From Fluctibacter halophilus (lineage in GTDB: Bacteria; Pseudomonadota; Gammaproteobacteria; Enterobacterales; Alteromonadaceae), in NCBI RefSeq assembly GCF_020687825.1, contig NZ_JAJEWP010000004.1:124001-188000 (forward strand): a DNA stretch of 64,000 nt, given 5' to 3'. The position numbers and the translations under genes are program-made. Below, one piece after another: positions 18,716-51,146 of this stretch (position 1 is its first letter; every line of letters begins with the position of its first letter). The notes below the pieces were generated by a model. It saw nothing but the letters and a program-made list of their open reading frames with translations, ran no database searches and was not told the DNA's origin.

Positions 18716-19212
18716 GTGTGTCTCCAGTAAGTGGGTGAAGCCATTGGCCCACTACTAATAACAGCATAAAACGTGCCCTTATCAAGGTTTAACTCCCTGA
18801 AAATATTCGGCTTTTCAGTCAGCATCTGCATATTTATGCACTATTTCCACCTTCAGCCAGCCGTTAGCAAGCCCGGTAACGGACTAAAGCACCAACATTG
18901 TGCAACTGGCTACCTCCTGGAACACAGCGCATACGGGCTTGTACGACGAATGCCCGGCACAGGTCAGTGTTTGCACAACAATCGTACAAATTCTGGGCAT
19001 GAATGATTATTCATGGGCTTAACACCGGTAAAATTGGCCTGAAATTGGTCGACATTTTTATGGAATGCATCTTATTCGCATTTAACGTCACAAAAATTGC
19101 TGACATGCTATGGCGCTTTTACCCTTGTACCGGGAGTGCTACTCCCATAATGACAGTGATCAAATTCAACAAACATCACGTACCCAGATGTTGGACACAA
19201 AGAGGTTAGCCC
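18716..19212. other. Divergent intergenic region with palindromes
   Basis: About 500 nt between the receptor and RND operon starts. No gene is seen. It contains a 14-nt perfect palindrome (18827-18840, TGCATATTTATGCA) about 112 nt upstream of the receptor ATG and an 18-nt palindrome at 18998-19015 listed separately. Confidence 0.6.
18998..19015. promoter_or_regulatory. Perfect 18-bp palindrome matching the ArgR box
   Basis: CATGAAT-GATT-ATTCATG. The core TGAAT-N4-ATTCA fits the E. coli ARG box consensus in both half-sites. It lies about 200 nt upstream of the RND adaptor gene and about 280 nt upstream of the receptor gene. A single box is weak for ArgR, so a TetR-type operator is an alternative. 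Confidence 0.45.
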
Positions 19213-48659: not shown

Positions 48660-49795
48660 ACGTGTTTCACCATGTTGCGCAACAGGGTCACGGTCGGGTC
48701 CACGTAATGCAGATCAATAAACTCATCCGGTTGGTGTGCCTGTTCGATACTGCCAGGCCCCAGGATCAGGGTGTCACAGCCCAGTTGGTTGATAAACGGC
48801 CCTTCAGTGGCATAGTTTGCCGAACCGACCGGCTGCCCGGTGAGTTGCTCTGCCAATTCCACCAGGCCATGTTCATTACGACAGGCAAAAGCCGGTGCGG
48901 TCGGGTACATCAACGCTCGACTCAGACGTCCCGGATAATGACTGTGGACCGGTTTAAGGGCTTCATCAATCAGACGAATAGCATCCTCGTCCGGCAACGC
49001 CGGAACCGGACGTAAATCGAAACTCAGCTGGCAGTGGCCACAAATACGGTTTTCGCCGTCGCCACCGTGGATGTGGCCGAGATTCAATGTCGCATACGGT
49101 ACACTGAAGTCATCATCCCGATACTGATCGTGGAGTTGTTGCTTGAGGGTCAGCAACTGTCCAATCGCCTGATGCAGTATCTCAATCGCGTTAACCCCTC
49201 TGGCCGGGTCGCTGGAATGGCCCGCCTGTCCTTCGGCGGTTAGGGTATGTGCCATGTGCCCTTTGTGGCGTGAAATGGCTTTCAGTTCGGTCGGTTCCCC
49301 AATGATCGCCATGTCCGGTTTGATCAGTTGCTGTTGGGCAAAAAAGCGCGCACCGGCCATGGAGGTTTCTTCATCGGCGGTGGCCAGCACATACAACGGC
49401 TTTTTGAGCTGCTTGAGCGGGATTGTCTGTAAGGCTTCCAGAATGAAGGCAAAAAAGCCTTTCATGTCGCAGGTGCCAAGCCCGTACAGACGCTCGTCTG
49501 CCTGGCGCAACACAAAAGGGTCCTGGGTCCAGCGTCCTTCATCAAAGGGCACCGTATCACTGTGTCCGGCCAGCAACAGTCCCCCTTCACCCGAGCCGAA
49601 TTTGGCCAGCATGTTGTATTTGTTGCGTGCACCGGGGACATTTTGAATACTTATGTCAAAACCAAAATCACTCAGGCGGGTCGCCAGATAGTCGATCAGC
49701 GGACGGTTGGTCATGTCCCACTTTTCGTCGAAAGCACTTATAGTTGGAAACTCAATGATATCCCGGTAGGTATCCAGGAATGTGATTTGTGGCAT
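48650..49795 (-). CDS. argE: Acetylornithine deacetylase
   Basis: A 381-aa zinc enzyme of the M20 family that releases ornithine from N2-acetylornithine. It has LLLAGHSDTVPFD, LYGLGTCDMKGF, TADEETSMAGA and IGEPTELK. Presence of argE together with argA means the linear, not the cyclic, ornithine pathway. It is divergent from argC across an ArgR-type operator, which overlaps its ribosome site region. Confidence 0.95.
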   Translation of the reverse strand: MPQITFLDTYRDIIEFPTISAFDEKWDMTNRPLIDYLATRLSDFGFDISIQNVPGARNKYNMLAKFGSGEGGLLLAGHSDTVPFDEGRWTQDPFVLRQADERLYGLGTCDMKGFFAFILEALQTIPLKQLKKPLYVLATADEETSMAGARFFAQQQLIKPDMAIIGEPTELKAISRHKGHMAHTLTAEGQAGHSSDPARGVNAIEILHQAIGQLLTLKQQLHDQYRDDDFSVPYATLNLGHIHGGDGENRICGHCQLSFDLRPVPALPDEDAIRLIDEALKPVHSHYPGRLSRALMYPTAPAFACRNEHGLVELAEQLTGQPVGSANYATEGPFINQLGCDTLILGPGSIEQAHQPDEFIDLHYVDPTVTLLRNMVKHVCA

Positions 49796-49804
49796 ATCTT
49801 ATCT

Positions 49805-49843
49805 CAAATATATTTATTCACTTTTATTGCATAATTATATTTT
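49805..49843. promoter_or_regulatory. Pair of ArgR boxes between argE and argC
   Basis: Two 18-bp imperfect boxes (49805-49822 and 49826-49843) are separated by exactly 3 bp, the spacing of ArgR operators in E. coli. The best halves are ATTCA at 49816-49820 and TGCAT at 49828-49832; the remaining halves are degenerate but AT-rich. The position, between the divergent argE and arg operon, is that of the E. coli argE/argCBH operator. Confidence 0.55.
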
Positions 49844-49881
49844 TAATGGCAGACTTTCCAACAACTTTTTACGAAAAATCC

Positions 49882-49901
49882 GAGAACACCCGGGAGTTCT
49901 C
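49882..49901 (+). promoter_or_regulatory. Hairpin holding the leader-peptide ribosome site
   Basis: GAGAAC (49882-49887) pairs with GTTCTC (49896-49901); the loop contains GGGA of the Shine-Dalgarno for the leader frame at 49905. It may modulate leader translation. Confidence 0.4.
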
Positions 49902-49904
49902 TTT

Positions 49905-49991
49905 ATGCAACAACACACTATAGGTATGACACACATTGATGCACAAGTTTTTTCCCTGCCTTGCTATGCACTGACGGTCGGTCGACGATAA
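49905..49991 (+). CDS. Putative arginine leader peptide (28 aa, ends Arg-Arg)
   Basis: A short frame starting ATG 49905 with GGGAG eight nt upstream. It ends ALTVGRR-stop; the last two codons are both CGA, the rarest and most slowly read Arg codon in many gammaproteobacteria. It lies between the ArgR boxes and a strong terminator that precedes argC. The product itself (MQQHTIGMTHIDAQVF at the start) looks like no known protein, as expected for a regulatory leader. Inference: ribosome stalling at the Arg codons reports low arginyl-tRNA. Confidence 0.5.
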   Translation: MQQHTIGMTHIDAQVFSLPCYALTVGRR

Positions 49992-50013
49992 TTACACTGG
50001 GTATTGCATAGCA
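49962..50013 (+). promoter_or_regulatory. Hairpin P1 overlapping leader peptide end
   Basis: TGCTATGCA (49962-49970) and TGCATAGCA (50005-50013) are perfectly complementary over 9 bp. The first arm lies inside the leader coding sequence, just before the Arg codons; the second arm touches the terminator stem at base 50013. Confidence 0.5.
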
Positions 50014-50066
50014 CGCTTTTTGCCTTTGCGATGAGGTCGTGCGCAAAGGCAAAAAGCGTTTTTTTT
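50013..50066 (+). terminator. Strong intrinsic terminator in the argC leader
   Basis: A perfect 18-bp stem (50013-50030 with 50042-50059, starting ACGCTTTTTGCC), 11-nt loop, followed by eight T. It lies 54 nt upstream of the argC ATG, downstream of the leader frame. At this strength it would stop most transcripts unless prevented. Confidence 0.88.
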
Positions 50067-50120
50067 CATTTCTACTAGTTTTACTGACACAGGTTTATTG
50101 AAGGAAGGAACTGTACCGTT

Positions 50121-51146
50121 ATGTTGCGTTGCTGCGTAGTAGGCGCGAGTGGCTACACAGGCTCTGAGCTCGTCCGTTTATTGGCCAAACACCCCAACTT
50201 TGATCTGAGTGATTGCTTTGTTTCCGCCGGCAGTCAGGATGCCCATCGCCCGATCACGGCGCTGTATCCGGGTCTGCAGGGTCACGTTGATTTGACCTTG
50301 CAACCACTGGACGATCAACGTCTGGCGTTGCTGGCCCAACAATTTGATGCCATTTTTCTGGCCACCCCCCATGAAGCCAGTCATGACTGGATGCCCGCCC
50401 TCACCGCAGGTAACGCCAGAGTGTTTGACCTGTCCGGTGCATTTCGTTTACCCGACACTGACGTGTTTGCCCAACACTACGGCTTTGCCCACCAGCACCG
50501 GGCGCTGCTCGACACCGCGGTGTATGGTCTGGCAGAGTGGCATGCGCCGCGTATCGCAGACAGTCAGTTGATTGCCGTGCCGGGGTGCTACCCGACAGCG
50601 TCGCTGCTGGCGCTCAAGCCACTGGCCGAAGCCAACCTGCTGTCGGCTGAGCAATGGCCGGTGATCAATGCGGTTTCCGGGGTCAGCGGCGCGGGTCGCA
50701 AAGCCAGCCTCAACACCAGTGTGTGCGAAGTCAGTTTGCAGGCCTACGGCGTACTGGGCCATCGCCATCAACCGGAAATCGCCCAGTATCTGGGTCAGCC
50801 GGTGTTGTTCACCCCACACCTGGGTAACTTCAAACGGGGCATCCTGGCCACCATCGCGGTCAAACTGGCCAGCGGCGTCACTGCACAACAGGTCAGTGAT
50901 GCTTATCAACAACGCTATGCTGACAGTCCTGTGGTACGTCTGTTGGATCACTTCCCACGCCTCGATGATGTGGTCAACACACCACACTGTGATCTGCACT
51001 GGAAAGTGGATGAAGCGTCCGGTCATGCTGTCCTGGGCAGCGCGATTGACAACCTGCTCAAAGGGGCGGCCAGCCAGGCGGTGCAATGCGCCAATCTGGC
51101 GTTCCAGCTGGCGCCAACGGCAGGCCTGTTGGAGGTGCGCCCATGA
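50121..51146 (+). CDS. argC: N-acetyl-gamma-glutamyl-phosphate reductase
   Basis: A 341-aa NADPH enzyme of arginine synthesis. It has the nucleotide-binding VVGASGYTGSELVRLL and the catalytic Cys in VPGCYPTA. The ATG has a GGAAGGAA site. It is the first gene of argCBFGH-argA; the stop overlaps the argB start (ATGA). Confidence 0.97.
   Translation: MLRCCVVGASGYTGSELVRLLAKHPNFDLSDCFVSAGSQDAHRPITALYPGLQGHVDLTLQPLDDQRLALLAQQFDAIFLATPHEASHDWMPALTAGNARVFDLSGAFRLPDTDVFAQHYGFAHQHRALLDTAVYGLAEWHAPRIADSQLIAVPGCYPTASLLALKPLAEANLLSAEQWPVINAVSGVSGAGRKASLNTSVCEVSLQAYGVLGHRHQPEIAQYLGQPVLFTPHLGNFKRGILATIAVKLASGVTAQQVSDAYQQRYADSPVVRLLDHFPRLDDVVNTPHCDLHWKVDEASGHAVLGSAIDNLLKGAASQAVQCANLAFQLAPTAGLLEVRP

Follow-up and report, generated by a model that had tools for sequence, protein, structure and literature searches.

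Results

The argE-argC spacer

In the 64,000-nucleotide stretch of DNA analysed here (the window), argE on the minus strand is followed by argC, argB, argF, argG, argH and argA, as assigned by NCBIfam. argC, the first gene of argCBFGH-argA, lies on the plus strand at 50121-51146, with its ATG at 50121. The genes to the left of the argE-argC spacer, i.e. argE and two frames beyond it, are all on the minus strand, and we therefore infer that a terminator in the spacer should act only on transcripts started before argC.

All features of the spacer described here are on the plus strand unless stated otherwise. A putative leader peptide ORF of 28 codons (MQQHTIGMTHIDAQVFSLPCYALTVGRR; 49905-49991) runs from an ATG at 49905 to a TAA at 49989-49991 and has a Shine-Dalgarno sequence, GGGAG, at 49892-49896, 8 nt 5' of its ATG; a shorter leader starting at the ATG at 49926 is also possible. 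Its last two codons, directly before the TAA, are CGA-CGA (49983-49985 and 49986-49988, i.e. 49983-49988), which we consider the sensor codons based on the in-frame conservation described below. CGA is a rare codon, accounting for 5/160 Arg codons in eight genes of the window. These codons are enclosed by a hairpin, P1, with a 5' arm at 49962-49970 and a 3' arm at 50005-50013, 9 nt each and 100% complementary. P1 adjoins an intrinsic terminator at 50013-50066 with an 18-bp stem, an 11-nt loop and eight T; the 18-nt arms (50013-50030/50042-50059) are 100% complementary, and 54 nt separate the T run (50059-50066) from the ATG of argC. Thus, the 28-codon frame with a ribosome site and a CGA-CGA-stop end, the 9-bp hairpin with its first arm just before the Arg codons, and the adjoining perfect terminator with eight T ahead of argC, on which the initial annotation was built, are all present.

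The ArgR-type boxes also reported upstream fared less well. By eye, two 14-nt stretches 7 nt apart (49807-49820 and 49828-49841, without assigned strand) resemble such boxes, but each has three mismatches to TGMATWWWWATKCA, and a scan of the window with up to two mismatches found no ArgR box near argC; because they are not recovered at this threshold, we grade them as weak. Across the window, the box scan did not return more ARG-box-like matches than expected by chance. By eye, two ARG-box-like palindromes, TGCATATTTATGCA and TGAATGATTATTCA, lie at 18827-18840 and 19000-19013 in the interval between two genes, one TonB-receptor-like and one efflux-like. A search of 49500-50500 against Rfam 15 with E-values up to 5 gave three matches, all far below gathering, i.e. 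no known riboswitch or leader family.

The terminator folds with -31.7 kcal/mol (z -6.68) and none of 200 shuffles was as good; for 49870-50120 as a whole, z is -2.74 and one of 200 shuffles was as good. A generic terminator scan did not list 50013-50066 because its loop limit of 8 nt is below the 11 nt found here. P1 alone is not exceptional in energy (z -0.71) and its support is therefore comparative.

The CGA-CGA leader among relatives

Of 295 family genomes searched for ArgC, 286 had a match, as did 120 of 138 genomes of the order. In both cases the genomes were sampled from a larger group, and in the family the ArgC positions were taken among the matches listed. The resulting set of relatives includes 57 named loci, and after removal of identical upstream regions, 166 distinct regions remained. 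The initial annotation staked its reading on relatives keeping a short frame with Arg codons and on covariation in both hairpins. Many relatives do keep the frame, i.e. an in-frame CGA-CGA in a short ATG frame is present in 109 of the 166 distinct argC upstream regions, including 68/75 regions of the closest set, and the hairpins covary (see below), but the in-frame codon pair is absent from 57 of the 166 regions, with many of the more distant relatives lacking the frame. By genus, at least one sampled member carries the leader in 18 of the 33 sampled genera of the family, while in the other 15/33 no sampled member has an in-frame CGA-CGA. Named hosts are Alteromonas, Paraglaciecola, Aliiglaciecola, Bowmanella, Aestuariibacter, Marisediminitalea and Salinivibrio socompensis. 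Among 16 other sampled families of the order, the leader is present in five (f16, 5/5 regions; f12, 4/4; f6, 7/7; f15, 4/4; f25, 4/5) and was not found in f2, f3, f8, f9, f10, f11, f14, f18, f20, f21 and f26, from which only one or two regions each were sampled. This sampling is biased to leader-positive families, as all but one of the second-round regions came from the five positives. Overall, this type of leader is probably widespread.

The codon pair is kept in frame to an extent not expected by chance. CGACGA occurs in 111 regions, and in 109 of these it is in phase with an ATG-initiated frame 5-50 codons long, compared to a mean of 26.8 and a maximum of 36 in 100 rounds with shuffled flanks, and it fits the other two frames in only 9 and 6 regions. 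In the two exceptions, L121 and L166, a TTG lies in frame instead. CGA-CGA is also the commonest codon pair in frame, present in 23 of 50 units, each a genus or family (the runner-up reaches 11), and the first member of the unit carries it in 23/50 units compared to a mean of 0.155 and a maximum of 2 in 200 shuffles. One genus was entered twice among the 50 units, and the corrected count is 22/49. Other adjacent Arg pairs in such short frames are few and mostly extensions of a CGA-CGA run; in L160 (CGA-CGG) and L167 (CGA-CGT), CGACGA is lost yet Arg-Arg is retained. With this, the frame test supports a leader ORF, while its translation is inferred and the ribosome sites of the relatives were not scored.

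Ten distinct leaders in genus g7 (L061, L063, L068, L069, L071, L077 (Opacimonas), L119, L150, L151 and L156) lack the Arg codon pair and keep P1- or terminator-like parts. L119, L150 and L156 have TGACGA in place of CGACGA. All ten have ACACTC and a TCCCT(G/A)C box; six have GAGTGTG, which is complementary to ACACTC, further on, and in four, the stretch before the TCCCT(G/A)C box lacks an ATG. In the window, a box, TCCCTGCC, precedes P1 at 49953-49960. It is kept in many near relatives and is exact in 37 of 175 regions, duplicates included. Because a variant of this box persists in g7, often without a leader frame, the box seems to be an RNA or DNA element and not coding sequence; no pairing partner was found for it when the terminator, the loop and the argC Shine-Dalgarno sequence were considered by eye.

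Covariation of P1 and the terminator

In the window and 10 relatives, seven pairs of P1 are paired in 77/77 cells, compared to at most 46.8% in slid versions. One of the pairs has a C-G to U-A exchange; the paired share and score were reached by 22/500 shuffles and the count of exchanged pairs by 174/500. Among 19 Alteromonas sequences, five pairs of P1 are changed on both sides (0/500 shuffles), and 89.3% of cells are paired compared to 50.6% at best in slid versions. Of 17 terminator pairs in the window group, 12 are changed on both sides, which none of 500 shuffles matched, with 90.9% of cells paired compared to at most 53.5% in slid versions; in Alteromonas, the terminator is nearly invariant and, thus, says little by itself. 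In other words, the expected covariation of both hairpins was found, strongly for the terminator and more modestly for P1.

A model comprising P1 and the terminator (R1) matched 47 of the 295 family genomes in nine genera, one of which is g7, with one match each. By their coordinates, all 47 matches are on the strand of argC and end 15-64 nt before the argC match. In the genome of the window, the sole other match (E 0.16) is at the end of a katG-like gene, so named from its sequence without a search. The terminator arm CTTTTT(A/G)CCTTTG (50016-50028 in the window) and near variants recur in leaders from Alteromonas, Aliiglaciecola, g7 and g12; this recurrence exceeds the needs of the stem and could be explained by double use in an antiterminator.

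More broadly, a scan for terminator-like stems, in which the arms of eight leaders were corrected by hand, found one in 70 of 86 CGACGA leaders and none in 16. In four of the five f16 leaders, the Arg codons lie within a hairpin followed by CTTTT, a short T run, and in g47 (L032) they lie within a hairpin followed by eight T. Because the codons are part of the hairpin in these leaders, we infer that a stalled ribosome would block termination directly. In f15 (L149, L217, L218 and L219) and f25 (L143, L214, L215 and L216), the CGA-CGA leader is followed by GC-rich hairpins without a T run, which in f15 are apparently mutually exclusive; in these two families, Rho or translation may take the place of an intrinsic terminator.

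In f6 as in f25, the hairpins lack a T run, and in the window the fold pairs 49946-49955 with 50103-50112, the region of the argC Shine-Dalgarno sequence. Both observations would fit a leader that works mainly via Rho or by gating the argC ribosome site, and in which the intrinsic terminator plays a secondary part. However, no other pairing in the window and its near relatives is as well supported as the terminator, and L004, the only relative inspected by eye for pairing of this kind, shows no such Shine-Dalgarno sequence. We consider such a mode of action improbable, while not dismissing it entirely.

Search for an antiterminator

For attenuation by a stalled ribosome, an RNA structure that competes with the terminator would be expected in the ribosome-free stretch. 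The initial annotation noted no clear antiterminator arm, and this doubt is borne out because none better than chance was found in the window. We folded 60 leaders, five of which were added by hand, in six sets, with the ribosome edge assumed to be 13 nt past the first CGA base. For the window, the ribosome-free stretch folded to the end of the terminator loop gave z +0.51, and in its ten Aliiglaciecola-like nearest relatives the antiterminator is no better than chance (mean z +0.11). Mean z in the other sets is -1.59 for Paraglaciecola (n=11), -0.03 for Alteromonas (n=19), -0.74 for the Marisediminitalea-like set (n=10) and -0.19 for the remaining leaders (n=9). Because some stretches within sets are identical, n overstates independence. 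A candidate hairpin in the window (50011-50023 with 50028-50042, i.e. 50011-50042) draws on the 5' arm of the terminator and the last 3 nt of P1 and folds with -11.8 kcal/mol (z -2.26); this stretch was chosen after the fact, z for 49996-50043 is -0.84, and the candidate is weak. To regard it as the antiterminator of the window is a guess.

In a few relatives, a competing structure is visible. In six Paraglaciecola leaders with four distinct stretches, AGGUCUG in the 3' arm of P1 can pair with CAGACCU in the 5' arm of the terminator. z is -3.40, -3.83 and -3.53 for L023, L024 and L029, which share an identical stretch, and -3.40, -2.56 and -1.42 for the other three, while in the five remaining Paraglaciecola leaders z lies between -0.91 and +0.73. 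L060 (Marisediminitalea aggregata) and L052 (a MAG) again share an identical stretch, and in both CAGGUCGCCGA pairs with the loop (-25.9 kcal/mol, z -2.72 and -2.89); for the eight others of this set, z lies between -1.20 and +0.43. The Alteromonas leaders have a looser pairing whose covariation score is 0.205 versus 0.117 (0/500), but there is no excess of pairs with double changes (171/500 shuffles reach the number), 68.9% of cells are paired, and the mean z of -0.03 (n=19) gives no excess stability. Thus, a P1-competing antiterminator, as the proposal that a stalled ribosome opens P1 and alters downstream folding would imply, stands out in one type of Paraglaciecola leader and in L052 and L060, is partial in Alteromonas and is not above chance in the window.

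A duplex of the post-ribosome stretch with the 5' arm and loop of the terminator was rejected as a general solution, with no support in 57 leaders (mean z 0.04). This test treats both stretches as separate strands and omitted 13 of the 70 leaders as duplicates or because their terminators were unclear, overlapping or atypical.

The stability of the terminator, the lack of an antiterminator that stands out in the window, and the ArgR-like boxes, albeit weak, by eye and absent at two mismatches, leave room for the alternative of a constitutive terminator, or of one that forms the end of a small RNA derived from the leader, with fixed read-through and ArgR as the sole regulator. Such an arrangement would explain neither why CGA-CGA is retained in frame nor why P1 encloses these codons and covaries, and we regard it as very unlikely.

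The codons and the leader peptide

We compared the rest of the leader peptide, i.e. the peptide without the Arg codons, in seven groups using gapless alignments anchored on CGACGA and only pairs with at least 70% identity. pN/pS is 1.07 and 0.97 in the two Alteromonas-type groups and 0.53, 0.73, 0.64, 0.45 and 0.74 in the five others, and changes at codon positions 1/2/3 number 512/533/538. In these groups, there is little or no purifying selection on the leader peptide outside of the Arg codons. Judged from these sequence comparisons, the codons count for more than the peptide.

Leader peptides such as SpeFL and TnaC act as sensors by nascent-peptide arrest. We give very little weight to the idea that here, too, the peptide in the tunnel senses arginine or ornithine and stalls the ribosome at the end of the frame independently of tRNA supply, because, even if Arg-Arg often lies at the stop (no codon between them in 27/111 and one codon in 27/111) and an SLPCYA stretch recurs among the nearest relatives of the window, the upstream residues evolve freely, Arg-Arg alone is common to the leader peptides across families, and in f15 Arg-Arg is at residues 6-8, where, as we infer, the chain is probably too short for tunnel sensing. 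The drift of the leader peptide favors charged tRNA-Arg as the signal over a peptide sensor.

Discussion

Based on the comparisons reported here, we consider it highly likely that the argE-argC spacer contains an arginine-specific ribosome-mediated transcription attenuator. The attenuation by an Arg leader peptide proposed in the initial annotation is supported by conservation of the frame and covariation of the hairpins; its dependence on arginine is inferred and there are no expression data. The reading rests on codons kept in frame, P1, the terminator, and their siting before argC and nowhere else found, all of which were established by comparison.

In this model, transcripts from the argC promoter would begin with a leader peptide ending in two rare CGA codons. 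With ample charged tRNA-Arg, the ribosome would finish the leader and leave, P1 would form beside the terminator, and RNA polymerase would stop before argC. When charged tRNA-Arg is scarce, the ribosome would stall at CGA-CGA and cover part of the 5' arm of P1. The freed 3' arm of P1 could then form an alternative hairpin with the 5' arm or the loop of the terminator, resulting in read-through into argCBFGH-argA. The step from stalling to read-through is established for known attenuators. Here, translation of the leader, stalling on uncharged tRNA, the direction of control and an antiterminator in the genome of the window are inferred. Similarly, that P1 is the hairpin opened by a stalled ribosome (1:2) is supported as to its pairing, while the opening by the ribosome is an inference. 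With the arginine dependence inferred, the leader very probably switches on the arginine genes in arginine shortage.

CGA is decoded slowly via inosine wobble. In a more speculative reading, the fixation of this rare codon would suggest that the leader senses charging of one slowly decoded tRNA and not arginine in general. In this reading, the attenuator may be ancient, with only the CGA-CGA sensor, which is read by one tRNA-Arg, having been kept while the downstream switch was repeatedly rebuilt: the Alteromonadaceae would have a 1:2/2:3/3:4 type of folding, and f16 and g47 a minimal form, with the Arg codons themselves serving as the 5' arm of the terminator and the stalled ribosome as the antiterminator. 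This is a possibility that we keep open without, at present, favoring it.

If correct, the attenuator would explain why a strong terminator precedes a six-gene biosynthetic operon and would add a tRNA-charge signal to the free-arginine signal of ArgR. Also, these leaders would represent a natural series of attenuators with one sensor and different switches, and the conserved leader offers a way to ask why CGA and not one of the common Arg codons is used. In textbooks, attenuation is described for his, trp, phe, thr, leu and ilv, while arg is under ArgR repression; this gap would be filled by a conserved arginine leader that spans at least six families within the order, its own and five others. 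In the literature, we found no earlier report of an arg biosynthesis operon with an arginine attenuator; most subscription papers were outside the scope of this search and the absence is not proof.

The design principles proposed here are overall similar to those of the enteric leaders trpL, hisL, pheL, thrL and ilvL. Like these, the spacer has a short leader ORF that contains end-product codons, a hairpin around or just before these codons and an intrinsic terminator before the first biosynthetic gene. However, the amino acid is arginine, there are two or three such codons, with CGA-CGA as their core, and the antiterminator varies between genera and is not demonstrable in the window.

Arginine codons in leaders have been described in other contexts. 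The speF leader orf34 of Salmonella is similar in that it is a short upstream ORF with two Arg codons in a row, at which the ribosome pauses at low arginine (PMC6386406). In contrast to the leader described here, orf34 regulates ornithine decarboxylase through Rho, RNase G and translation, has a conserved peptide domain and does not precede an arginine biosynthesis operon (PMC6386406). In Staphylococcus aureus, rare Arg codons in the rbfL leader peptide likewise sense arginine restriction; rbfL differs in that it blocks translation initiation of a biofilm regulator without acting on a terminator (PMC13009471). Finally, in Pseudomonas carAB, the stem-loop is tied to pyrimidine control and the arginine control to ArgR, unlike what we propose for argC; however, a leader, with a leader peptide mentioned for P. 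aeruginosa, and a terminator-like hairpin are similarly found ahead of an arginine-related operon (PMC4997734).
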